Positions 46,015-57,818 of a stretch of 64,000 nucleotides of DNA are shown one piece after another (the first letter of the stretch is position 1; each line of letters opens with the position of its first letter). The position numbers and the translations under genes are program-made. The stretch covers positions 434,001 through 498,000 of the forward strand of contig NZ_BNAG01000002.1 in NCBI RefSeq assembly GCF_014653175.1, read 5' to 3'. The notes beneath the pieces are model-generated. The model was not told where the DNA came from and did not search any database. It was given only the letters and a program-made list of their open reading frames with translations. The stretch comes from Roseivirga thermotolerans. Its GTDB lineage: Bacteria > Bacteroidota > Bacteroidia > Cytophagales > Cyclobacteriaceae.

Positions 46015-48611
46015 GTAAACGGTTCAAGCACAGTCCGCCACGTTGGGCCGATTGGTTTCTCGGCCTCTTTTGTAATCCCGATTTACTCGAGCAGTTGCAA
46101 GGCGATGTACACGAACTCTTCTATTGGCGGGTGGAAGAAAAGGGCTATTCTCATGCAAAATGGTCATTTATCTGGGATGTAATCCGACTATTCCGCTGGT
46201 CTAACATCAGACGAACAAGAAAACAAGGTCAAAAACTAAATCAAATCGGAATGTTTAAGAACTATTTTAAAATAGGTGTCCGGAACCTGTGGAAGCAGCG
46301 AATGCCTAGTGCTATTAATATTATCGGTCTTTCCATTGCTGTGGGCTGTTCCATTGTGGCTTTTAAGTTTGTGGAATTCAGCTATGTAAAGGATAATTTT
46401 CATAAGAATAAGGAAGACCTCTTTCTGGTTACACACTGGGAGGAACTAGAATCTAATAAGGGTAGAAACGGAGCTACCAACAATGAATTGACAAGAGAAA
46501 TTCTTGAATCGGTTCCTGGCATAAAGGCTTCTACCCGCTACAACCGTCTGCAGTTAGAAGCACGGGTGAATAAACACATCACTTATAATCTTACCCACTT
46601 CGTAGATCCGGCCTATTTAGAGATGTTTACTTTTGAGCTTCAGGCCGGAAATCCCAAAACGCTCAATTCGGCCGATCAAGTAGTGATTGATGAGAGTACG
46701 GCCATCCGGCTTTTTGGGGAGCAGTCGGCTCTGGATCAGTCCATAGAGCTGAAAATTGGAGAAGAGTGGAAGGTGTTTTCGGTGGGGGCTGTATACAAAG
46801 ATAAACCCCACAACGGAAGCCTTCAGTTGGGTATTCTGGTCAACTACCAGCACTTTGAGCAACACTTGTCTAAACTAGGGCAGGATGACTGGAGTACTAA
46901 TTTCTTTATTCAGCGGCAGGCGGGTATCCAACCAGAGTTATTGTTGGAGTCTATGGACAAGCTTTTGCCTATTTACAACAAAGACAATGAAGATGGGGCA
47001 TATAGTAATTTTGAGTTAGAGCCAATAACTACTATGGCCAACAATGCCTACGAAATGAGTAATAGTATTGGTTCCGCACCCAACAAAGCTCCTATTCTTA
47101 CTCTTTCTGCCATTGCTGTATTTATGTTGCTGCTCTCTACGCTCAACTACGTCAATATTTCACTGGCCATGATAATGAAGAGGCTAAAAGAGATTGGGGT
47201 AAGAAAGGTTGTGGGTAGCCCCAGAAGACAACTTATCATTCAGTTTCTTTGCGAAAACCTGTTGCTGTGCTTGCTCTCCATGTTCGTGGGACTTTTGCTG
47301 GCCCAAGGGTTGTTTTTACCTGGTTTCAATGAAATAGCAGGTGTTAGTTTTCAGCTCAATTTGCTGTCGCACCAGAACTTTTTAATGTTCCTTGCTGCCC
47401 TGTTGTTGTTCATAAGCCTGGCTTCAGGTCTTTATCCTGCCGTTGTGGCTTCGTCATATAAGCCCATTTCTATTTTGAGGAAGGCTACTCAAAGAGGAGG
47501 AAGGCGCATTCTCAGTAGTGTTTTTCTTACTTTCCAGATGATTTTGGCAATGGTTACCATTGTTGCGGCCGTTATGTTTGTGTATGCCAACCAAGTCAAT
47601 GAGTCCATAGAATGGGGTTACGACCAGCACAACAAGTTGGTAATTGGTATTCCGGAAAGTGATTACAGAGATGCTTTCCGAGATGTGTTATTGGCCGACC
47701 CAAGCGTGGAAGTAATAGCAGGTACACGATCTAATATTGGGCAGTCTCTGAATGGTGTTCAGTTTAAAAACGGTGAGGTAAAAACCTATGCCGAACTGTT
47801 TGAAGTAGGTCGTAATTATCCGGAAGTACTAGGGCTTAAGTTGGTTGAAGGCAGACTGTTCGATGAGAACCTGGAGAGCGATTTTCGGAAGATGCTCATT
47901 GTTAATCAATCGTTTTTAGAAGACCTGCAGCTCACTTTCGATCCGGATGGTACAACAGTAGTTCAGGATTCGGTTGAATATTCCATAATTGGTGTTGTGG
48001 AAGACTACCATTATTGGAATCCCGGAATGGAGATTAGGGGCGCTGCAATGCGCGCAATTCCGGCTAATCTATACACTTCCTACCTTGTTGAAATGAGAGA
48101 GGGCAACATCTTTGAACACCGAGGTCGATTGGAAGAAAAACTACAGGCTATGGTAGAAGAGAAGTCTGTGTATGTAGGCATTCAGGAATTGATGTTTGAA
48201 GGGTTCTATGACGAAACCCGAGGAATAGGAAACATTATGATCTTTACGGCCAGTATAGCCATTTTGCTGGCTGCCATGGGGCTCTATGGCTTGGTGAGCA
48301 TCAACATATCCAGTCAGATTAAGGACTATGGTATTCGAAAGGTGCTGGGCGCTTCTTCATTCAACTTGGCTAAAGCCATTGTTTTAAAATTCCGTTTTGT
48401 GCTACTGCTTGCGATATTGGTTGGTTGTCCTTTGGCGGTATTGCTGGTGGGTGCGTTGGTAGATAATGTATATGCCTATGCTCCCGGCATAGGAGTGGGA
48501 CCTCTGGCAGTAGCGGTTTTTATTCTGCTTTCAGTCACCCTTTTTACTTTCAATCTTCAGATAAGAAGAGTGAGAAATATGAATCCGGCAGAAACTTTGA
48601 GAACCGAGTAG
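46011..48611 (+). CDS. ABC permease with permease prefix domain 2
   Basis: An 866-residue protein. The first about 75 residues form the permease prefix domain 2 (PPRWADWFLGLFCNPDLLEQLQGDVHELF region), a feature of FtsX/MacB permeases encoded next to PadR. From residue 83 it follows the MacB order: helix (SAINIIGLSIAVGCSIVAF), MacB_PCD, three helices starting LKEIGVRKVVGSPRRQL, second periplasmic domain, and a last block starting IKDYGIRKVLGASS. No ATPase is nearby. Likely controlled by the overlapping PadR gene. Transported substrate unknown. Confidence 0.92.
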   Translation: MSKRFKHSPPRWADWFLGLFCNPDLLEQLQGDVHELFYWRVEEKGYSHAKWSFIWDVIRLFRWSNIRRTRKQGQKLNQIGMFKNYFKIGVRNLWKQRMPSAINIIGLSIAVGCSIVAFKFVEFSYVKDNFHKNKEDLFLVTHWEELESNKGRNGATNNELTREILESVPGIKASTRYNRLQLEARVNKHITYNLTHFVDPAYLEMFTFELQAGNPKTLNSADQVVIDESTAIRLFGEQSALDQSIELKIGEEWKVFSVGAVYKDKPHNGSLQLGILVNYQHFEQHLSKLGQDDWSTNFFIQRQAGIQPELLLESMDKLLPIYNKDNEDGAYSNFELEPITTMANNAYEMSNSIGSAPNKAPILTLSAIAVFMLLLSTLNYVNISLAMIMKRLKEIGVRKVVGSPRRQLIIQFLCENLLLCLLSMFVGLLLAQGLFLPGFNEIAGVSFQLNLLSHQNFLMFLAALLLFISLASGLYPAVVASSYKPISILRKATQRGGRRILSSVFLTFQMILAMVTIVAAVMFVYANQVNESIEWGYDQHNKLVIGIPESDYRDAFRDVLLADPSVEVIAGTRSNIGQSLNGVQFKNGEVKTYAELFEVGRNYPEVLGLKLVEGRLFDENLESDFRKMLIVNQSFLEDLQLTFDPDGTTVVQDSVEYSIIGVVEDYHYWNPGMEIRGAAMRAIPANLYTSYLVEMREGNIFEHRGRLEEKLQAMVEEKSVYVGIQELMFEGFYDETRGIGNIMIFTASIAILLAAMGLYGLVSINISSQIKDYGIRKVLGASSFNLAKAIVLKFRFVLLLAILVGCPLAVLLVGALVDNVYAYAPGIGVGPLAVAVFILLSVTLFTFNLQIRRVRNMNPAETLRTE

Positions 48612-48633
48612 CCTATAAACTTTTGTTCTGGCA

Positions 48634-49527
48634 TTAGGATGAAAGACTGTTCCACAGGTAAAAAACCGTATACGCCTCCCAACCGGGCATGGTTTTAAAA
48701 AAGGCTCTAATAGCGTCTTCGTTTTTCCGGTCATCGATAAGCCCCAGGTTAAAGAGCGCCTGTGTAAGGCCAGTGTCACCAAAAGGAATGGCTTTAGGGG
48801 CACCAAACGACTTCATTAAGGCATAGTTGGCCGACCAAACGCCAATACCCTTTACTGAAGTAAGCAGCGCTTGTTTGCTCTCAAAATCGGGTAAAGTCAG
48901 CAAACGTTGATGGCTAATGTTGCCCGAAACAAAAGCTTGAGCCACGTTTTTTAGGTACTTCAGTTTGCTTCGCGAAAATTGCTGATGGTTGTGGAGGTAT
49001 TCCTCATCTATGGTCAACATTTTTTCGGGGCTAGGGAAGTGGTAAAGATCCATTTCCTTCCATGTTAACTTTTCGCCATAAAGCTCAACCAATCTTCGTT
49101 TGAGTTTATGTGCAAAAGAGAGGTTGATTTGTTGCCCTATAATACTCCAGCATAAGGCTTCGAACAAATCGGGTATGCCCATTATGCGCAAACCATGCAG
49201 TTGACTGCTCAGATGGGCTAGTTTTGGGTGGCTTTCCACTAGTGCGTAAAAAGGTTTCAGGTCTCGGTCTGCATCGAACCATCGGCCTACGTACTGCTTT
49301 AGTTGTTCTGTTTGATGGGGAGTGAGGCTTTGAGGAGTTTCGATGATGATTTCATTGCCCCTGCCAGTCAGAGCTACAGGTATGTACTCATTTTCCAGTT
49401 TAATTAGCCGAAACACCGAACCATCAATAACCTGATAAAGTATTTCATCTGTGCTTCTGTACAAGGCGTTTAAGCACTTATTAAAATCGAATGGAGGGGA
49501 GCAAGCAAGGTTCAGTTGAGTTTTCAC
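48634..49527 (-). CDS. DNA-3-methyladenine glycosylase II family (AlkA-like)
   Basis: A 297-residue HhH-GPD protein. The helix-hairpin-helix (TSVKGIGVWSANYALM) is followed by the catalytic Asp in PFGDTGL. The N-terminal about 110 residues have the AlkA N-domain pattern. It would cut the N-glycosidic bond of alkylated purines in base-excision repair. The start is GTG 49527. It ends 22 bases from the convergent permease gene. Confidence 0.88.
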   Translation of the reverse strand: MKTQLNLACSPPFDFNKCLNALYRSTDEILYQVIDGSVFRLIKLENEYIPVALTGRGNEIIIETPQSLTPHQTEQLKQYVGRWFDADRDLKPFYALVESHPKLAHLSSQLHGLRIMGIPDLFEALCWSIIGQQINLSFAHKLKRRLVELYGEKLTWKEMDLYHFPSPEKMLTIDEEYLHNHQQFSRSKLKYLKNVAQAFVSGNISHQRLLTLPDFESKQALLTSVKGIGVWSANYALMKSFGAPKAIPFGDTGLTQALFNLGLIDDRKNEDAIRAFFKTMPGWEAYTVFYLWNSLSS

Positions 49528-49585
49528 AATTCAACTTAGAAAAATATGGTCACCATATGTGAAGACAAATGAAAGAGTTTGAAAA

Positions 49586-50161
49586 TTAATCGATGACTTC
49601 TCGGGTTAGTCGAATGGTAATGTCGTGTGGGGCTGGCTGATTTCCTCCAAAATAAGGCCATAGCCAGTAGTTCTCACCACTTTCACAGTTGTCGGTGCGC
49701 GGCATGCGAATGGTATTCATTCCATCTCCAGAATACTCATAATGGTCGGTAGCAATCTTTATTCGGAGGCTTAGGGACTCATTAATTTTTGCCGTACCCA
49801 TCATTTCAAAGCTAAGTTGCCCTTCCCGGTAAGTATAGGCGAGTATTTGCAGCTCGTCATTAAACCAGCGCCAACCAATGCGGGCGCTTTCGCTCTGATG
49901 ATCCTGACCACAATCCGAAAACCCTACCAGTTTATTAATGTCGGCCTGATCGGAAGCAACTTCTAAAGTGTATCGGGCGCTTTCATCGAAAAGAGCTGTT
50001 ACCGATATGCCATTGCCTGAAAAAGGTTCGTTTCGGAAAATAGAACTGTGAGACCCTTCAGGAATGGTAAACACTTCAAAGCCTGTGTCCGGGTCAATGT
50101 CTATGCTTTGGTTGCATCCTAATATGCTGATTACTAGCAGTATAAAGGCGTAATTTTTCAT
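49586..50161 (-). CDS. Putative lipoprotein of unknown function
   Basis: A 191-residue protein with a lipobox (FILLVISILGC), so it should be lipid-anchored at Cys16 or nearby. The remainder lacks a recognised domain; it looks mostly beta-stranded (ISVTALFDESARYTLEV, SLRIKIATDHYEYSG) with two Cys residues in the middle and C-terminal parts. It lies alone on the minus strand between alkA and the divergent leader region. Confidence 0.7.
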   Translation of the reverse strand: MKNYAFILLVISILGCNQSIDIDPDTGFEVFTIPEGSHSSIFRNEPFSGNGISVTALFDESARYTLEVASDQADINKLVGFSDCGQDHQSESARIGWRWFNDELQILAYTYREGQLSFEMMGTAKINESLSLRIKIATDHYEYSGDGMNTIRMPRTDNCESGENYWLWPYFGGNQPAPHDITIRLTREVID

Positions 50162-50265
50162 GAGTAGTTTGTAGTTACTAAGATAGCGAACTTTTTTATA
50201 GCGGGTTCAAAAGTCAACCGGCTGTCCTATTTATGTATGTTTTGATGTAAAAAGTGAGAAATAAC

Positions 50266-50295
50266 TTGCGCCTAAAAATGGATAAGCTACTTTTG
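50266..50295 (+). promoter_or_regulatory. Promoter of the leader-phhA-hisHAF-IE operon
   Basis: TTG at 50266-50268, a 19-base spacer and TACTTTTG at 50288-50295 are an exact match to the Bacteroidota consensus TTG-N19-TAnnTTTG. Transcription is predicted to start about 50300-50303, at or within a few bases of the leader peptide ATG at 50301, so the leader may be translated from a leaderless message. Confidence 0.75.
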
Positions 50296-50300
50296 TAGCC

Positions 50301-50375
50301 ATGTTATTCGCAAACGCATATTACTACCACTATTACCATGCTACGCCAGCGCGGAACGGTAGTTTTATGTTTTGA
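50301..50375 (+). CDS. Leader peptide rich in Tyr and His codons
   Basis: A 24-codon frame beginning MLFANA, then seven codons in a row for Tyr, Tyr, Tyr, His, Tyr, Tyr, His (50319-50339), then ATPARNGSFMF and TGA. It starts immediately after a consensus promoter and ends 26 bases before a terminator hairpin with a T-run, in front of genes for tyrosine formation (phenylalanine hydroxylase) and histidine synthesis. The codon run is the classic sensor of an amino-acid attenuator. It has no other recognisable role. Confidence 0.8.
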   Translation: MLFANAYYYHYYHATPARNGSFMF

Positions 50376-50433
50376 TTGATTTAAACTCATTGAAAATAGA
50401 TAAACCCGGTTCCGCAAGAGCCGGGTTTTTTTT
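50323..50433 (+). terminator. Transcription attenuator (segments 1-4 and terminator)
   Basis: Four pairing segments: 1 ACTACC (50323-50328) with 2 GGTAGT (50358-50363); antiterminator GCGGAAC (50351-50357) with GTTCCGC (50409-50415); terminator AAACCCGG (50402-50409) with CCGGGTTT (50421-50428) and a T-run to 50433. The antiterminator uses bases of the terminator 5' arm and loop, so the two are mutually exclusive. A ribosome stalled at the Tyr/His codons would free 50351-50357 to form the antiterminator; a ribosome reaching the stop at 50375 would mask it and allow termination. Confidence 0.8.
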
Positions 50434-50456
50434 GTGCTTAAAACTTAGAAAACCAT

Positions 50457-51191
50457 ATGAAACAGATTTACGAAAATTACACAGCAGAAGACCAGAAAGT
50501 ATGGAAGATTCTGTTCGACAGGCAATTTCCTGAGTTGCCCAAAGCGGCCACTAAGGAGTTTCTGTTGGGCCTCGATAAGGTAAACTTTACAGCCGATGCC
50601 ATTCCCAATTTTGATGATACCAACAAAATTTTGCGGCAACTTACCGGTTGGGAAATCTATGCCGTTCCGGGAATAGTGGAAGACGGTTTGTTTTTCGAGC
50701 TAATGTCGAACAAAAAGTTTCCGGCTACAACGTGGGTTAGAAAAATGAGCCAATTGGACTACCTGGAAGAGCCAGATATGTTTCATGACGTGTTTGCTCA
50801 TATTCCTTTGCTCACTAATCAAGCCTTTGTAGATTTTCTTCAGGCCATCAGCCAATTTGGTCATGAGTGGATTGAAGACGAGTGGGCTATTCACTTGCTT
50901 TCTAGAATTTACTGGTTTACGATTGAGTTTGGCCTTATCAGAGAAGCGGAAGGTCTACGTATCTACGGAGCCGGTATTTTGTCTTCATCAGGAGAAACCA
51001 AATATTCCTTGTCTAATGAACCTAACCATTTTGCTTACGATGTAGATCATATTTTAGATACGGGCTACCGAAAAGACCGAATGCAGGAAAACTACTTCAT
51101 TATCGATTCTTATGAGCAGCTTTACGAGTCGATTCCTGAAATAAAAGAGAAGATTGAAAAACGATTGAAGGAAAGACCGGTTGTATCCTAA
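50457..51191 (+). CDS. phhA: Phenylalanine 4-monooxygenase
   Basis: A 244-residue enzyme consisting of the catalytic domain alone, as usual for bacterial forms. Iron ligands His110 and His115 (MFHDVFAHIPLL) and Glu157 (YWFTIEFGL) are present, with the pterin-binding region EPDMFHDVFAH. It hydroxylates phenylalanine to tyrosine using oxygen, iron and tetrahydropterin. It is the first structural gene after the Tyr/His attenuator and lies 20 bases from hisH, so its expression should respond to charged tRNA-Tyr and tRNA-His. Confidence 0.93.
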   Translation: MKQIYENYTAEDQKVWKILFDRQFPELPKAATKEFLLGLDKVNFTADAIPNFDDTNKILRQLTGWEIYAVPGIVEDGLFFELMSNKKFPATTWVRKMSQLDYLEEPDMFHDVFAHIPLLTNQAFVDFLQAISQFGHEWIEDEWAIHLLSRIYWFTIEFGLIREAEGLRIYGAGILSSSGETKYSLSNEPNHFAYDVDHILDTGYRKDRMQENYFIIDSYEQLYESIPEIKEKIEKRLKERPVVS

Positions 51192-51211
51192 GCTTAAAAG
51201 ATTTCAAGAAT

Positions 51212-51793
51212 ATGAGTGTAGCCATTGTGAATTACAATGCCGGTAATGTGCAGTCAGTAACCTATGCCCTGCAACGCTTGGGGGTAGAGCCTGTACTTAC
51301 CGATCAGGCTGAAGTGCTTCAGTCAGCCGAAAAGGTGATTTTTCCGGGGGTGGGAGAAGCCAGCACGGCCATGGAATTTCTGAGAAAGAAAGGGCTCGAT
51401 GTGGTTATAAAGAATCTGAAACAGCCTGTTTTTGGAGTCTGTTTGGGGCTTCAGCTAATGTGCAAGCATTCGGAAGAGAATAATACCGATTGCCTGGGTA
51501 TTTTTGATGTGCAGGTGAAGAAGTTTGCCCCAAAGCTGAAGGTGCCACAAATGGGTTGGAACAATTTGGAGCAAATGAATTCGCCCCTGTTTAAGGGCTT
51601 GCCTGATGAGCCCTTTGTGTACTATGTACATAGCTATTATGCCGAACTGAGTGATCATACGGTGGCAGAAACGAACTATGTAAACCGCTTTTCTGCCGCT
51701 TTGCAAAAAGAAAATTTCTATGCCTTGCAAGCGCACCCCGAAAAAAGTGGAAAAGTTGGAGAGCAGATTCTACGCAACTTTTTGGAGTTGTGA
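51212..51793 (+). CDS. hisH: Imidazole glycerol phosphate synthase, glutaminase subunit HisH
   Basis: A 193-residue class I glutamine amidotransferase. Catalytic triad: Cys77 in VFGVCLGLQLM, His175 and Glu177 in QAHPEKSG. PGVGEA forms the oxyanion region. HisH releases ammonia from glutamine and channels it to HisF, encoded downstream. The last four codons and stop lie in a 20-bp tandem duplication. Second gene of the operon. Confidence 0.96.
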   Translation: MSVAIVNYNAGNVQSVTYALQRLGVEPVLTDQAEVLQSAEKVIFPGVGEASTAMEFLRKKGLDVVIKNLKQPVFGVCLGLQLMCKHSEENNTDCLGIFDVQVKKFAPKLKVPQMGWNNLEQMNSPLFKGLPDEPFVYYVHSYYAELSDHTVAETNYVNRFSAALQKENFYALQAHPEKSGKVGEQILRNFLEL

Positions 51794-51820
51794 GAGATAG
51801 TTTGGAGTTGTGGGAGATAG
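51781..51820 (+). repeat. 20-bp tandem duplication at the hisH 3' end
   Basis: Bases 51781-51800 and 51801-51820 are identical except for one change (A to G at unit position 13). The first unit contains the hisH stop, so the second unit is noncoding. It lies at the start of the 140-base hisH-hisA gap, the largest gap in the operon, in which no other gene is seen. Confidence 0.85.
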
Positions 51821-51933
51821 TAAAAACCGCAAATCGATAGTTATTGAGAGGCAAAAAGAGCTTGTTTCTCAGGAGTCTGCAGTATCAGCCAGGCTAAAAA
51901 ATCATTGACGAATAAACCCTAAAGATTTCAGCA

Positions 51934-52653
51934 TTGAAAATAATACCCGCAATAGATGTTATCTCCGGCAAGGCCGTTCGCCTTACCAAAGGAGATTATA
52001 ATCAGAAAAAAGAATACTCAGATAGCCCCTTAGAGGTAGCCCAAAGATTTGAGCAGGCCGGAATTACTCATTTGCACCTTGTGGATTTGGATGGTGCAAA
52101 AGCCCAAAAACCTCAAAATCTGGAGGTTTTAGAGGTTATTTCTTCCAAAACCCGGTTAAGAGTAGACTTTGGAGGAGGAGTGAAGTCTGGCGAATCGCTT
52201 GAGGCTGTACTCAAAGCCGGTGCACAACAGGTAACAGCCGGAAGCATTGCAGCCAAAGATCCGGAGATGGTTTTCTCGTGGCTGAAGCACTATGGTGCAG
52301 AAAAAGTTATTCTGGGGGCGGATGTAGTCGATGAAAAAATAGCCATAAGTGGTTGGCAGGAAGACTCGGGGCTCGATTTGTTCCCCTTTTTAGAGCAGTA
52401 TTTAGCCAAAGGCGTAACGTATTGTATTTGTACTGATGTGAGCAAAGATGGAATGCTTCAAGGACCTTCAATCGAGTTGTATAAGAAGATAATTAAAGAG
52501 TTTCCCCAGCTAAAACTTATTGCTAGTGGAGGTGTGGCCGAATTGAACGATTTATATGAGCTCCGCGAAGCAGGTCTTTATGGTGCCATAGTTGGCAAAG
52601 CCTATTATGAGGGGAGAATATCTCTGGATGAACTAGCCGCCTTTAATAAGTAG
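51934..52653 (+). CDS. hisA: ProFAR isomerase HisA
   Basis: A 239-residue (beta-alpha)8 enzyme that isomerises ProFAR to PRFAR in histidine synthesis. Catalytic Asp8 ([10 protein letters not shown]) and Asp130 (ILGADVV), phosphate loops VDFGGGV and IASGGV are present. The start is TTG 51934, because the sequence [10 protein letters not shown] begins exactly at the family N-terminus and no ATG precedes it in frame. Confidence 0.96.
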
Positions 52654-52706
52654 AACAGGCAAAACTGCCTTTTATAACTGAAAACCATAGATCGTATATC
52701 TATATC

Positions 52707-53468
52707 ATGCTAACAAAAAGAATTATTCCCTGCCTCGATATCAAAGATGGCAGAACGGTAAAAGGAGTCAACTTTGTGGGCTTGCGCGATGCCGGAGACC
52801 CGGTGGAACTGGCGGCAAGGTATGCCTTAGAAGGTGCCGATGAACTTGTTTTTCTGGATATAACCGCCACGGTAGAAAAGAGAAAAACCCTGGTGGAACT
52901 GGTAAAACGGGTGGCGGCAGAAATCAATATTCCATTTACAGTAGGAGGAGGCATTAGCTCAAAAGAAGATGTGTCGGCTTTGCTTAATGCCGGGGCAGAC
53001 AAAATCAGCATCAATTCATCTGCGGTTAAACAACCGGGGCTGATCAACGAACTGGCTCAGGAGTTTGGTAGCCAATGTGTAGTGGTGGCCATAGATACCC
53101 GTTGGCTTAATGAAGAGCATATTGTTCATGTGAGGGGTGGCAGAACCCCCACAGAACTGAGGACTCTTGCCTGGGCAAAAGAGGTAGAGGAGAGGGGAGC
53201 CGGTGAAATTTTGTTAACCTCCATGGATCATGATGGAACCAAAGCCGGGTTTGCGAATGAGCTGACGGCCCAAATCTCAACCATGGTATCTGTGCCCGTA
53301 ATAGCCTCGGGTGGAGCAGGAACTATGGAACATTTTGTTGAGGCCTTTTCGAAGGGCAAGGCAGACGCTGCTCTGGCCGCTAGTATCTTTCACTTTAAGG
53401 AGATTGGAGTGCCCGAGTTGAAGACATATTTAAAAGAGAAAAACATCCCTGTAAGAATAGAACAATGA
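52707..53468 (+). CDS. hisF: Imidazole glycerol phosphate synthase, cyclase subunit HisF
   Basis: A 253-residue barrel enzyme. Catalytic Asp11 ([15 protein letters not shown]) and Asp130 (VVAIDTRW) are present, with the phosphate sites VGGGISS and [10 protein letters not shown]. It makes imidazole glycerol phosphate and AICAR with ammonia from HisH. Starts 53 bases after hisA and overlaps hisIE by 4 bases. Confidence 0.97.
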
Positions 53469-54082
53469 GGAAGCTAACAGACATAAATCAAGTAGATTTT
53501 GAGAAGGAAAATGGGCTGGTGCCGGCCATTATCCAAGACCTTAAAACGGCCAAAGTACTGATGCTCGGCTATATGAATAAGGAGGCTTTGGAGAAGACTC
53601 TCCATACCGGAAAAGTTACATTTTTTAGCAGGAGCAAACAGCGCCTATGGACTAAAGGTGAGACCTCTGAAAATTACCTTCAACTAAAGTCTGTGGCCGT
53701 AGATTGTGATAGCGACTCTCTATTGGTTTTGGTAGAACCAAAGGGGCCAACCTGCCATACAGGATCCGATACCTGCTGGGACGAAATCAATGTGAACAAC
53801 ATCCAATTCCTTTCCTATCTCACTCAGGTTATAAAGGAGAGAAAGCAGCTGCCGACCGATGAATCTTACGTGGCCAGACTATTCTCAAAGGGAATAAATA
53901 AGGTGGCTCAAAAGGTAGGAGAAGAGGCGGTAGAAGTAGTGATAGAGGCTAAAGATAATGATGAAAAGCTGTTTCTAAACGAGTCGGCTGACTTACTTTT
54001 TCACCTAATGATGCTCCTTGAGGCCAAAGGATATACGCTAAATGAGGTAGTTTCAATACTTAAAGAAAGACATGATAAATAG
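53465..54082 (+). CDS. hisIE: Bifunctional phosphoribosyl-AMP cyclohydrolase / phosphoribosyl-ATP pyrophosphatase HisIE
   Basis: A 205-residue fusion. HisI domain (1-115) with ATPIDxDK-like metal region and the zinc/Mg motif [22 protein letters not shown]; HisE domain (about 120-205) with [22 protein letters not shown] and NESADLLFH. It carries out two early steps of the pathway. Last his gene here; hisG, hisD, hisC and hisB are not in the window, so the pathway is split. Confidence 0.95.
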
Positions 54083-54122
54083 TTTGGTAACTGTTTGATT
54101 TAAAAATAATTAATTAATATAA

Positions 54123-54138
54123 TTTAGATTAGTCTAAA
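54123..54138. promoter_or_regulatory. DtxR-like palindrome upstream of the TonB receptor
   Basis: TTTAGA-TTAG-TCTAAA is a perfect 6-bp inverted repeat with a four-base centre, resembling metal-dependent DtxR/IdeR/MntR operators. A weaker related copy, TTTAGTC-TTAT-GATTAGA, lies at 54167-54184 and overlaps the -33 region. Both are in a very A+T-rich 134-base gap before a TonB-dependent receptor gene. Confidence 0.5.
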
Positions 54139-54190
54139 AATAAAATTAGAATAAAGTAAAGTATTATTTAGTCTTATGATTAGAAGTGTT

Positions 54191-54198
54191 TAACTTTG
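54191..54198 (+). promoter_or_regulatory. -7 promoter box of the TonB receptor operon
   Basis: TAACTTTG matches TAnnTTTG, 18 bases before the ATG at 54217. The -33 area (54167-54171) reads TTTAG, a partial match that also belongs to the weak palindrome copy. Confidence 0.55.
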
Positions 54199-54216
54199 TC
54201 GAAATATTTTACTGCG

Positions 54217-56565
54217 ATGAAGGCTGTTTACGTTGTACTGATACTCTTTTGTGCTTTCCAAATTCAGGCACAATCTGTGATAAAAGGAAAGGTAGTGGAT
54301 GGCGATGGCCCTGTAGCCGGTGCAGTTGTATTTGTTCAACAGAGTAACATATCTGATGTAACTGACGCTCAAGGGCGGTTCCGGATTGAAGTGGCCGAGG
54401 CCTTGCAAGTCACACTGGAAGTTCGATTTGTGGGCTATAAAAGAACACTCAAAAAGCTTAATCTCAAGCAAGGTGAGACCCTGGAGATAGAGCTGGTTTT
54501 AGAGTTGGATGTGCTGGGTTTAGATGATGTGGTGGTAAGTGCCAGTCGCTATGAAATAGACAAAAAATCAGCACCAGTTGCGGTGAGTGTAATCGGTCAA
54601 AAATTGTTCAATGCTACCCAGTCTCAATCGCTGGCCGATGGCCTCAATTTTCAGTCGGGAGTAAGAGTTGAAACCAATTGCCAGAACTGCGGATTTACCC
54701 AGGTTCGGTTGAACGGATTGGAGGGGCCTTACACACAAATTTTGGTCAACAGTCGGCCGGTGTTCAGCGCGCTAATCGGGGTATATGGTTTGGAGATGAT
54801 TCCGGCATATATGATCGAGCGGGTAGAGGTTGTAAAGAGCGGAGGTTCGGCACTATATGGTTCCAATGCCATTGCGGGTACAATCAATATTATTACGAAA
54901 GAGCCGGTTCTCAATACCTGGGAGGCCAGAAGTAGTTTTGCTTCCATTGATGGACGAGCCAGCGACTGGAATCACTCTGTCAACGGCTCCTATGTTTCCA
55001 ATAGTTTGAACTTCGGAATCACAGGCTTTGCCACCAGCCGCAGTCGTGAATCTTTCGATGCCAATAACGATGGCTTTACAGAAATGGTGAATCTGCAAGC
55101 CGAAACGCTAGGGCTAAAGAGCTTCTATAAGGTGGGGCGAAACACAAAGCTCTCGGTAGATTTTAACTACATCAATGAATTTAGAAGAGGAGGAAACCGG
55201 CTGGATTTGAGGCCTGAGTATACTGATATTACCGAGCAACTCGACCATGAAATAGTGATGGGGGCCTTTAATATCGATCAGTTTATTGGTGAAAGAAACA
55301 AGCTTTCGCTATATGCCTCCATGCAGCAAACAGATAGAGGGAGCTATTATGGCGGGTTGGGAGGAGCCAGAACACCTGAAGATAGTCTTTTAGCTGCCAA
55401 TGCTTACGGTATTACCGATGATATGAGCTGGATTTCAGGCTTGCAATGGGTTCATTCCAATGATGGCTCTCATTCATTCACCTCAGGTATTGAATTTCAG
55501 GAGAACACCACAGACGATGGTATTCCCGGCTATAACCGTGTGGTGGACCAGTCGGTGAAGAATATAGGCTGGTACGGACAATGGGAGTGGCAGCTCAACT
55601 CAAAATTAAAGACCCTGGCAGGGGCTCGTTTCGATAGGTCTTTGGTAGAAGGTACCTATCAGGTTGGTGATTTTGATCGAACTATTGACAATGATTTTGG
55701 AGTGATTAGCCCACGATTTACGCTGCTCTATTCTTTCAGTTCCAATTGGCAGTTTAGAGGGGGCTATGCTCGCGGCTTCAGAGCTCCTCAGGCGTTTAAT
55801 GAAGATTTGCACATAGCTTCGGCCGGAGGAGAGCCCGTATTCGTTTTGCTCTCCAACGGGTTGGAAAAAGAAACTTCCGATGCCTACACCGGTTCGTTGA
55901 GCTATACCCGGGCAGAAGGGCAGCGGCAGTTTGAGCTGAACTTGCAAGGATTCTATACCCAACTCAACAATCCCTTTGTTTTGGTAAATACCGGGAGTCA
56001 GTTGCCCAATGGTTCCATCATAGAAGAAGTTAGAAATGGTGAAGGGGCTTTGGTAAAGGGACTAAACCTCGAACTTAACTATACCCCTTCGAGCCGATGG
56101 GTGGCTCAGTCGGGTTTTACCCTCCAAAAAACGCGTTATGAACAAGAGCAAGTACTTTATGAGCCGGAAAACCCGGGAGAAGGGCAGTTGGTGACAACTC
56201 AACGATTTACCCGTATGCCCAATGCATACGGCTTTTGGAACCTGACTTATGAAACAACTACAGACTGGCAGTTTTTTATTTCCAATGTAGTTACGGGCCC
56301 CATGGTGGTGCCAGAAATACTGCAAGAAAGTGGTGTGCTGGTGCTGCGTAATTCCGGTTGGTTTTGGGATACAACCCTTAAGGCATCGCATCATTTTCAC
56401 ATTGGTAAGAACCTGCACATAGAACTGAGTGGGGGTATTCAGAACCTTTTCAATAGCTATCAGGCCGATTTTCAGACCGGGCCCACAAGAGATTCTGACT
56501 ACATCTATGGCCCCGGACGTCCCAGAACCTATTTTGTCAGTCTTAAACTGAGCAACAATGATTAA
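54217..56565 (+). CDS. TonB-dependent outer membrane receptor
   Basis: About 782 residues from ATG 54217, where a signal peptide begins (VYVVLILFCAFQIQAQ). An N-terminal carboxypeptidase-like beta sandwich (residues 20-95) is followed by the plug (VVVSASR, RLNGLEGPYTQILVNSRPV, IERVEVVKSGGSALYGSNAIAGTINIIT) and a 22-strand barrel ending in an aromatic strand. The plug carries Cys-x-x-Cys in NCQNCGFTQ. The family imports siderophores, metals, vitamins or sugars; the upstream palindrome suggests a metal-linked substrate. The thioredoxin-like gene overlaps the end by 8 bases. Confidence 0.9.
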   Translation: MKAVYVVLILFCAFQIQAQSVIKGKVVDGDGPVAGAVVFVQQSNISDVTDAQGRFRIEVAEALQVTLEVRFVGYKRTLKKLNLKQGETLEIELVLELDVLGLDDVVVSASRYEIDKKSAPVAVSVIGQKLFNATQSQSLADGLNFQSGVRVETNCQNCGFTQVRLNGLEGPYTQILVNSRPVFSALIGVYGLEMIPAYMIERVEVVKSGGSALYGSNAIAGTINIITKEPVLNTWEARSSFASIDGRASDWNHSVNGSYVSNSLNFGITGFATSRSRESFDANNDGFTEMVNLQAETLGLKSFYKVGRNTKLSVDFNYINEFRRGGNRLDLRPEYTDITEQLDHEIVMGAFNIDQFIGERNKLSLYASMQQTDRGSYYGGLGGARTPEDSLLAANAYGITDDMSWISGLQWVHSNDGSHSFTSGIEFQENTTDDGIPGYNRVVDQSVKNIGWYGQWEWQLNSKLKTLAGARFDRSLVEGTYQVGDFDRTIDNDFGVISPRFTLLYSFSSNWQFRGGYARGFRAPQAFNEDLHIASAGGEPVFVLLSNGLEKETSDAYTGSLSYTRAEGQRQFELNLQGFYTQLNNPFVLVNTGSQLPNGSIIEEVRNGEGALVKGLNLELNYTPSSRWVAQSGFTLQKTRYEQEQVLYEPENPGEGQLVTTQRFTRMPNAYGFWNLTYETTTDWQFFISNVVTGPMVVPEILQESGVLVLRNSGWFWDTTLKASHHFHIGKNLHIELSGGIQNLFNSYQADFQTGPTRDSDYIYGPGRPRTYFVSLKLSNND

Positions 56566-57010
56566 ATCGGGGCTCATCGGGTGTTTGTTGTACTGTAGCA
56601 CGACCGTTTGGGCTCAGGTCAACTGGATGAATTTTGAACAGTTGGATAGTGCCCTGACCAAAGCCCCAAAACCTACCGTGGTTTTTCTTGAAGCCGAGTG
56701 GTGTGCCTACTGTAAGAAAATGCAGAAAGAGGCTTTTACCGATACAGCGATACAGCAATTACTGAACGACAAATTCTATGCGGTGAAACTGGATATCGAA
56801 AACCCAAACCCGTGTGTTTTTGATGGAAAGGTATTTAACGGTGCTTCTAATAAGGGCTTTCATGAAATGGCCTACCTTTTTGCCGAAGAGGGCGAAGAGC
56901 CTGTTACACCAACCCTAGCTATATTGGATATGGAGTTCAAATTTTTGACAATTAAAAGGAACTACCTCTCCAGAAAAGAGCTACTCAACCTACTACGTAA
57001 GGCCCATTAA
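56558..57010 (+). CDS. Exported thioredoxin-fold protein
   Basis: A 150-residue protein with a short signal peptide (LIGCLLYCSTTVWAQ) and a thioredoxin-like domain carrying AEWCAYCKKM, a redox-active Cys-x-x-Cys. cis-Pro is likely in VTPTLAI. The arrangement resembles periplasmic thioredoxin-related (DUF255/SoxW-like) reductases. It overlaps the receptor gene by 8 bases and precedes the outer-membrane protein gene, so the three may work together, for example in keeping the receptor plug cysteines reduced. Confidence 0.8.
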   Translation: MIKSGLIGCLLYCSTTVWAQVNWMNFEQLDSALTKAPKPTVVFLEAEWCAYCKKMQKEAFTDTAIQQLLNDKFYAVKLDIENPNPCVFDGKVFNGASNKGFHEMAYLFAEEGEEPVTPTLAILDMEFKFLTIKRNYLSRKELLNLLRKAH

Positions 57011-57029
57011 TTTTATACATTTGTGGCTT

Positions 57030-57818
57030 ATGAAACAGGTAAGTCAATTCATTTGTGTGCTGTGTTTTATGGCACTGGTTGTACAGGCCAGAGCACAGAA
57101 TATTTACACAGACAGGCCCACCCAAACCACCTCTTCTGCCATTGTTCCCAAGGGAGCATTTCAGGTTGAAACAGGGTTTTATTTGCTGGAATATTCGGTT
57201 GCCACCATGCAACCGAATGGCAATAGTAAATACCAGTATTTCTCTCTAAACAATACTCTGCTACGCTATGGTGTTTCTGAACGGTTTGAATTGCGCTTTT
57301 CCCAGGAAGTAGGTAAAAGAAGACAGGTAATTGATGGTAATATTCTCTTTGTGAACGATGCCCAAGTGGCTCCTACCATGTTTGGCGCCAAAGTGGGATT
57401 GGTTAAGGATAATTCTTCCCTACCGGATATAGGGCTTATTGTAAGTGCCGGAGGCGGGATTTTTGAAGAAACCCAAAGTGGCCTTCTTACCGATATACGG
57501 CTGGCAGTAGATGCCCCTCTGGCTGAGTCGCTGGCTCTTTCGGCCAACCTGGGAATGACCCACAACAATGGTTTTGAAAACAGAAATACCTTTTACACCC
57601 TCATGTTTGCCTATGGGCTCAATGATAAATTGGGAGTGTTTATTGAATCTTATGGAGGATTTCCAAAGGTCGGACAAAGCGAACATGCCATGGATGCCGG
57701 CCTTACTTATTTGCTCAGCTCCAGTTTGCAGATAGATGTTTATGGAGGTACTGGGCTTTCGGACAGTGCTTCCAACCTGTTGTTGGGCTTTGGTTTGAGT
57801 AAACGATTTTTAAAATAG
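57030..57818 (+). CDS. Outer-membrane beta-barrel transporter-like protein
   Basis: About 262 residues from ATG 57030 with a signal peptide (FICVLCFMALVVQARAQ). The start TDRPTQTTSSAIVPKGAFQVETGF and the alternating strands ending GFGLSKRFLK match the outer-membrane family annotated as transporter or phenol-degradation MetA-pathway protein. A TACATTTG box at 57016-57023 fits the -7 consensus but no -33 is seen. Substrate unknown; likely a metal- or small-molecule-related channel given its neighbours. Confidence 0.75.
   Translation: MKQVSQFICVLCFMALVVQARAQNIYTDRPTQTTSSAIVPKGAFQVETGFYLLEYSVATMQPNGNSKYQYFSLNNTLLRYGVSERFELRFSQEVGKRRQVIDGNILFVNDAQVAPTMFGAKVGLVKDNSSLPDIGLIVSAGGGIFEETQSGLLTDIRLAVDAPLAESLALSANLGMTHNNGFENRNTFYTLMFAYGLNDKLGVFIESYGGFPKVGQSEHAMDAGLTYLLSSSLQIDVYGGTGLSDSASNLLLGFGLSKRFLK

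Follow-up and report, generated by a model that had tools for sequence, protein, structure and literature searches.

At one locus of the 64-kb window (the whole stretch of DNA analyzed, 64,000 nucleotides), phhA and the genes hisH, hisA, hisF and hisIE follow a short ORF in which seven successive codons specify Tyr or His. This arrangement raises the question of whether a single leader can sense two amino acids that stem from unrelated pathways, and of whether its codons match the genes behind it. We analyzed the leader region at the locus and its counterparts in relatives. The phhA-his leader is very probably a ribosome-mediated transcription attenuator whose regulatory codons stand for two amino acids, Tyr and His, judging from its sequence and from these comparisons.

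Elements of the leader region

All elements are on the forward strand. The promoter consists of the −33 element TTG (50266–50268) and, at a distance of 19 nt, the −7 box TACTTTTG (50288–50295), which follows the pattern TAnnTTTG of the Bacteroidota primary sigma factor. The leader peptide ORF (50301–50375; 24 codons, MLFANAYYYHYYHATPARNGSFMF) has counterparts in relatives. Its codons 7–13 (50319–50339; TAT TAC TAC CAC TAT TAC CAT) give the run Tyr-Tyr-Tyr-His-Tyr-Tyr-His. The promoter, the leader and the run had been claimed in the initial annotation of this DNA, and their coordinates are correct base for base. A run of seven consecutive Tyr/His codons occurs only once in the window, both strands included, and in none of 60 simulated windows with the same dinucleotide frequencies.

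Segment 1 (50317–50328) overlaps the Tyr codons and pairs with 50358–50369 in segment 2 (50351–50369). The other part of segment 2, 50351–50357, pairs with 50409–50415 to form the antiterminator. Segments 3 and 4 (50402–50433) form an intrinsic terminator, an 11-pair stem (50402–50428) followed by a T run. The cores of the helices are exact complements: ACTACC (50323–50328) and GGTAGT (50358–50363), GCGGAAC (50351–50357) and GTTCCGC (50409–50415), and, within the terminator stem, AAACCCGG (50402–50409) and CCGGGTTT (50421–50428). The pause hairpin, the antiterminator and the terminator with its T run had thus all been placed correctly beforehand. Taken as a class, terminator-like sites show no enrichment in 48600–57200 (8 observed against 9.0 expected from shuffles), and the leader terminator has 11 pairs versus 6 in the next best site there. 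The leader RNA (50293–50456) folds with a z score of −2.45 against shuffles, 4 of 200 being equally good. The sequence features expected of an attenuator are present at the locus, namely the Tyr/His codon run, the terminator before phhA and, by computed pairing, the antiterminator and the 1:2 helix.

The position of the stop codon should be noted. It lies at 50373, 3 nt beyond segment 2, so that a terminating ribosome should cover the 3′ part of segment 2, judging from the size of the ribosome footprint. An almost leaderless transcript would begin near 50300 and be translated at once. With both Tyr-tRNA and His-tRNA charged, the ribosome would clear codons 7–13; segments 1 and 2 would then pair, or the ribosome at the stop codon would cover part of segment 2, and the 3:4 terminator would halt transcription near 50433. 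With Tyr or His in short supply, the ribosome would stall over segment 1. Since stalling at codons 7–13 would cover 50323–50328 and free segment 2, pairing of segments 2 and 3 would be allowed, and with this antiterminator formed phhA-hisH-hisA-hisF-hisIE would be transcribed. Either shortage should act, because codons of both kinds are intermixed along one and the same paired segment and immediately behind it. We infer this response to either shortage, as well as the stalling and the regulation itself, from sequence. In this scheme Tyr sensing would pair with phhA, and the His codons would occur where his genes follow phhA.

Predicted near-leaderless start

The −7 box is close to the leader, and the transcription start is therefore predicted at 50300, one base before the ATG. 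From the same spacing, the 5′ UTR is predicted to be about 1 nt at the locus and 1–4 nt across the boxed leaders. Of 77 leaders, 34 are preceded by a box TAnnTTTG that ends 5, 6 or 8 nt ahead of the leader start (22, 7 and 5, respectively). The same spacing was found at none of the 77 phhA starts and, within these upstream regions, at none of 346 further short ORFs that begin with ATG. When any in-frame start is permitted, the box is found for 38 of the 77 leaders versus 2 of 252 control ORFs, and a relaxed box gives 57 of 77 versus 7 of 252. In 39 of the 77 leaders, those of the Algoriphagus type included, the strict box is missing at that place. A box at −12 to −5 is described for Flavobacterium psychrophilum in PMC9723704, where leaderless mRNAs amount to 5.5% of those examined. 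The predicted starts suggest that attenuation in Bacteroidota can operate on transcripts with hardly any 5′ UTR.

Genes of the operon and tyrosine supply

The gene order phhA-hisH-hisA-hisF-hisIE proposed in the initial annotation is borne out by NCBIfam matches over the curated cut-offs: phhA, phenylalanine 4-monooxygenase (50457–51191; NF008877/TIGR01267), hisH (51212–51793; TIGR01855), hisA (51934–52653; TIGR00007), hisF (52707–53468; TIGR00735) and hisIE (53465–54082; NF002747), all on the forward strand. Between phhA and the end of hisIE there is only one further TAnnTTTG box, inside hisH at 51499, and the next is at 54191. The latter, in TAACTTTG (window 54191–54219), precedes a TonB-dependent receptor gene (ORF listed from 54196, ATG 54217), which is therefore probably transcribed from a promoter of its own.

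A search of the own genome (G000, of the Roseivirga group) for the TyrA domain (PF02153) gave no match, so that PhhA is the probable Tyr source there. Of the 18 phhA-bearing genomes of the same genus, four (G002, G003, G010 and G018) have TyrA (PF02153, at least 55 bits). The own genome carries hpd, a Tyr-catabolic gene, as well. In another member of Bacteroidota, Echinicola vietnamensis, genetic data given in PMC7311316 support a biosynthetic phenylalanine hydroxylase. The idea that the leader is restricted to genomes in which Tyr comes from PhhA alone was dropped, because leader presence and TyrA loss show no significant association among 110 phhA loci (p = 0.11). TyrA is absent in 21 of 43 leader loci and in 22 of 67 other loci at the cut-off that we set (55 bits on PF02153). 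The leader marks phhA as a probably regulated gene of Tyr biosynthesis in Bacteroidota.

Leaders of phhA in relatives

We sought phhA in 195 relatives (match in 135), in named genome contigs (the best 80 of 569 used), in 295 genomes of the class (match in 80) and in 390 genomes of the order (match in 265). From the 195 relatives 30 loci and 80 further places were taken, with G072 and G134 (contig ends) and weaker matches left out; from the class 30 loci were taken; and from the order loci were taken among the matches listed, together with 60 places picked for spread over families. The sample of 190 loci (166 distinct) and 87 further distinct ones comprises 253 distinct phhA loci. A leader was called when an upstream ORF of 10–45 codons has at least five Tyr or His codons within ten and is followed by an intrinsic terminator, a criterion that favors neither His nor Tyr. 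L263 falls outside it (two His codons, no terminator and no hisH within 1.5 kb). The row of L285 in one comparison, an artefact of a gene cut at the contig start, was not used.

A leader with a terminator was called at 92 of the 253 loci. Two of these leader loci (L024 and L190) have no downstream sequence and were excluded from the hisH counts. Leaders with hisH no more than 600 nt behind phhA have at least two His codons in 54 of 58 cases, versus 2 of 32 where no hisH lies in at least 1 kb behind phhA (Fisher 3e-17, uncorrected for kinship and overstated, since the loci are related and independent switches are few). At least 2.9 kb of downstream sequence is available for 25 of the 32 loci. 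A looser cut of four Tyr/His codons adds ten leaders: three with hisH have 2–3 His codons, and seven without it have 0–1. Where at least 3.9 kb follows, 42 of 46 leaders with hisH keep the order hisH-hisA-hisF-hisIE; in the other four (L056, L205, L230 and L234) hisH alone lies behind phhA.

The exceptions are few. Among the loci with hisH, L230 and L234 have no His codon, with hisH 121–123 nt after phhA, and L005 and L018 have one each; L215 and L330, both of one genus, have two His codons and no hisH. The leader of the latter pair, MKCKTTTYYHSNKYYHYSFFF..., is followed by no his gene within 3–4 kb behind phhA. A private promoter between phhA and hisH was considered as the cause of the His-free leaders of L230 and L234. 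A box is present there but explains little, since intergenic boxes are found in 11 of 59 leader loci, nine of them other than L230 and L234, and in 10 of 34 leader-less loci.

The position of hisH could be followed in further cases. In G010, phhA behind a dual leader (L190) is cut by contig ends; the other part of the gene is on contig C40 and is followed 44 nt later by hisH, as expected from the His codons. In G020 (L024), phhA reaches the end of its contig and another contig begins inside hisH, which fits adjacency without proving it. Nine leader-bearing genomes without hisH behind phhA have hisH elsewhere, in each of those searched. In L288, L290, L291 and L292 it lies directly behind hisB (Pfam IGPD), in a normal his operon. 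Leaders with 0–1 His codon precede phhA alone, phhA-aminotransferase-tyrA (L019 and L045, the aminotransferase having been checked in the former and tyrA in the latter) or phhA with a gene of pterin carbinolamine dehydratase, PCD (L061).

Conservation among relatives that keep phhA-hisH, which the initial annotation had set as a test, holds in part. Where the leader was found, the codons, the pairings and the terminator are largely kept, but 34 of the 93 phhA-hisH loci of the first set have no called leader by the looser criterion (37 of 93 by the stricter one). In L066 and L108 the leader peptide is visible though no terminator was called. In two loci with phhA-hisH and no called leader, L281 and L282, an intrinsic terminator lies between the two genes, which may therefore not share a transcript there.

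Does the run sense His, or Tyr only?

The His codons might result from drift in an attenuator of phhA that senses Tyr only, since TAY and CAY are one base apart and the 1:2 helix tolerates either. Every called leader has at least one Tyr codon and not all have His; Tyr-rich leaders with 0–1 His codon occur inside the order and beyond; and Tyr and His interchange at the same run positions within the genus, where Tyr or His is encoded by 128 of the 141 run codons of 18 leaders. These observations agree with sensing of Tyr only. Drift, however, predicts no link of His codons to hisH, contrary to the counts of 54/58 and 2/32, to the matching switches in two genera and to the contig-end case G010, which had the expected hisH. 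We consider Tyr-only sensing unlikely. The proposed match of the Tyr/His leader to the Tyr and His gene content is supported, as the His codons track hisH in relatives and the Tyr codons stay without it.

The two genera should be noted. In Marivirga, L050 and L054 have hisH and 2–3 His codons, and L043, L044, L046 and L301 have no hisH and 0–1 His codon. By species, M. sericea combines a Tyr run with the absence of hisH, and the leader of M. atlantica has both Tyr and His codons. In genus g88, L205 and L220 (G121 and G169) differ in the same manner within the genus. In a thinned tree of 76 PhhA proteins, from which all but four leaders of the Algoriphagus type and six near-copies or partial rows were left out, hisH status changes seven times, three changes being forced by well-supported branches. 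Supported branches of this tree give three independent pairs, in which the His trait changes the same way 2.4 times on average and the opposite way 0.0 times. Earlier trees gave two pairs (1.7 the same way and 0.0 opposite) and four pairs (3.2 and 0.2). A sign test on independent switches reaches significance on none of these trees, the switches being too few.

It is likely that attenuators of phhA that sense Tyr are common throughout the class and often near-leaderless, and that their codons are altered when the operon gains or loses genes. Such an attenuator would serve as a Tyr-or-His gate where the distal his half follows phhA and would sense only Tyr where hisH is elsewhere. Relatives provide the natural presence and absence of one of the two inputs, and thereby offer a readable test of the evolution of regulatory codons along with the genes of the operon.

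Pairing and composition of the leaders

The alternative helices were examined in the relatives. In a free register, pairing of segment 2 with the terminator 5′ arm and loop exceeds 95% of the shuffles for 56 of the 77 leaders, and pairing of the codon run with segment 2 (1:2) does so for 48 of 77 (single-base shuffles of one strand only). The pairing words vary by genus, both arms changing in concert: GGAAC/GTTCC in Roseivirga, GGAATAGG/CCTATTCC in Algoriphagus and GCGATTTAGGC/GCCTCAATCGC in Imperialibacter. When segments were swapped among 31 representatives, own pairings were stronger in sum for both helices (p = 5e-5, the floor of the test), though for each helix the own pairing ranks first in only 5 of the 31 representatives. 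A fixed alignment of 30 leaders that we chose shows changes on both sides at 50328:50358, 50324:50362, 50404:50426, 50409:50421 and 50407:50423. Its pair counts support 1:2 and 3:4 and are mixed for 2:3 (16–29 of 30 paired), because the alignment is out of register for several genera; the free-register and swap tests are preferred for this reason.

The conserved peptide of Algoriphagus, MNPTPRT-Y/F-V/I-HHS..., is kept beyond Tyr and His, as would be expected if the nascent peptide arrested the ribosome (an arrest peptide or metabolite sensing) in place of slow decoding at codons short of charged tRNA. Outside Algoriphagus the leaders have only the Tyr/His run in common, its positions and neighbors vary and its composition follows the operon content, and an arrest peptide is accordingly a rather remote explanation, less credible than drift of the His codons. 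The weakest reading is that the run senses a decoding property common to the tRNAs of Tyr and His, for example queuosine, which modifies tRNA-Tyr, -His, -Asn and -Asp and whose precursor is related to the pterin used by PhhA; both amino acids and the pterin link would fit, but Asn and Asp together account for only 51 of the 920 codons in the ten-codon windows, against 384 Tyr and 176 His, and His follows hisH, so that queuosine sensing is not supported and is highly improbable. Slow decoding at scarce Tyr or His codons is the reading that we prefer.

Leaders before hisG and other genes

The hisG genes of the own genome (L149, G000:C2:195300-197400) and of the same genus have their own His-rich leader (...HHFHHLS*). 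No intrinsic terminator was called at this leader in the own genome. Among 48 distinct hisG upstream regions, ten have a His leader and a terminator, only L160 of them in the same genus. The last codons of the hisG leader (CATCTCTC) pair with bases just behind the stop in 14 genomes of the genus, which places the stop codon in a hairpin loop; four other hisG leaders of the genus end in HHLV/HHLG and are unmatched to the hairpin. In L129, of another genus, the arms are changed and still match (ATTCCTC/GAGGAAT), and in L116 the stop follows a similar hairpin. Leaders of different types seem to serve the two halves of the split his operon.

Three further observations concern other loci. The phhA leader of L228 mixes Tyr codons with codons of Phe, the substrate of the enzyme (NTYYFFYF). 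In L280 (G041), hisH and the end of a gene for DAHP synthase (Pfam DAHP_synth_1) overlap by 4 nt, which is another aromatic-histidine junction; the phhA leader of G041 is Tyr-only. In another family of the order (L317, L319, L320 and L321), a different Tyr-rich leader type, YSYYSYYYRYY, precedes phhA.

Comparison with known attenuators

The thr leader senses Thr and Ile, and the ilv leader senses Ile, Val and Leu, in both cases products of one connected pathway. To our knowledge, all known leaders for multiple amino acids serve one connected pathway. In the phhA-his leader, by contrast, Tyr and His stem from unrelated pathways.

No Rfam amino-acid operon leader exceeds its gathering cut-off at the locus. 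The best is the Threonine operon leader (RF00506), whose covariance model resembles 50303–50435 weakly (22 bits, E 0.19); its gathering score of 55 is far above this, the phhA-his leader has no Thr run, and it is not a member. A scan of five sources with Rfam matched only a tRNA, and the T-box riboswitch model had no match at the locus or in the five sources. A literature search, mostly over titles and the beginnings of abstracts with few subscription journals, returned no Tyr or Tyr/His attenuator. As described in a study of Actinobacteria (PMC1262725), histidine, threonine and phenylalanine are attenuator-controlled elsewhere and tyrosine is T-box-controlled. A term search found no "phenylalanine" in a survey of his genes in Bacteroidota (PMC8305728), and neither tyrosine nor Bacteroidetes in a survey of premature terminators (PMC2965389).

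Within the phylum, "strong clues" of leader-peptide attenuation before amino-acid operons are described for F. psychrophilum in PMC9723704; these candidates share the mechanism class with the phhA-his leader, and the main text of that paper has neither the word histidine nor tyrosine. The polycysteine short ORFs of mycobacteria (Canestrari et al. 2020, as described in PMC9031893) are leaderless attenuators that respond to an amino acid through a codon run, much as is predicted for the phhA-his leader. They differ in sensing one amino acid and in belonging to another phylum. The race of ribosome and polymerase, the attenuator scheme and a list of leaders are described in PMC1183508. Like the enterobacterial attenuators given there, the phhA-his leader combines a leader ORF with regulatory codons, mutually exclusive helices, a terminator and a biosynthetic operon; the list contains no Tyr leader. 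One leader would here read two unrelated amino acids, and these two inputs would set the phhA-his leader apart from known attenuators.
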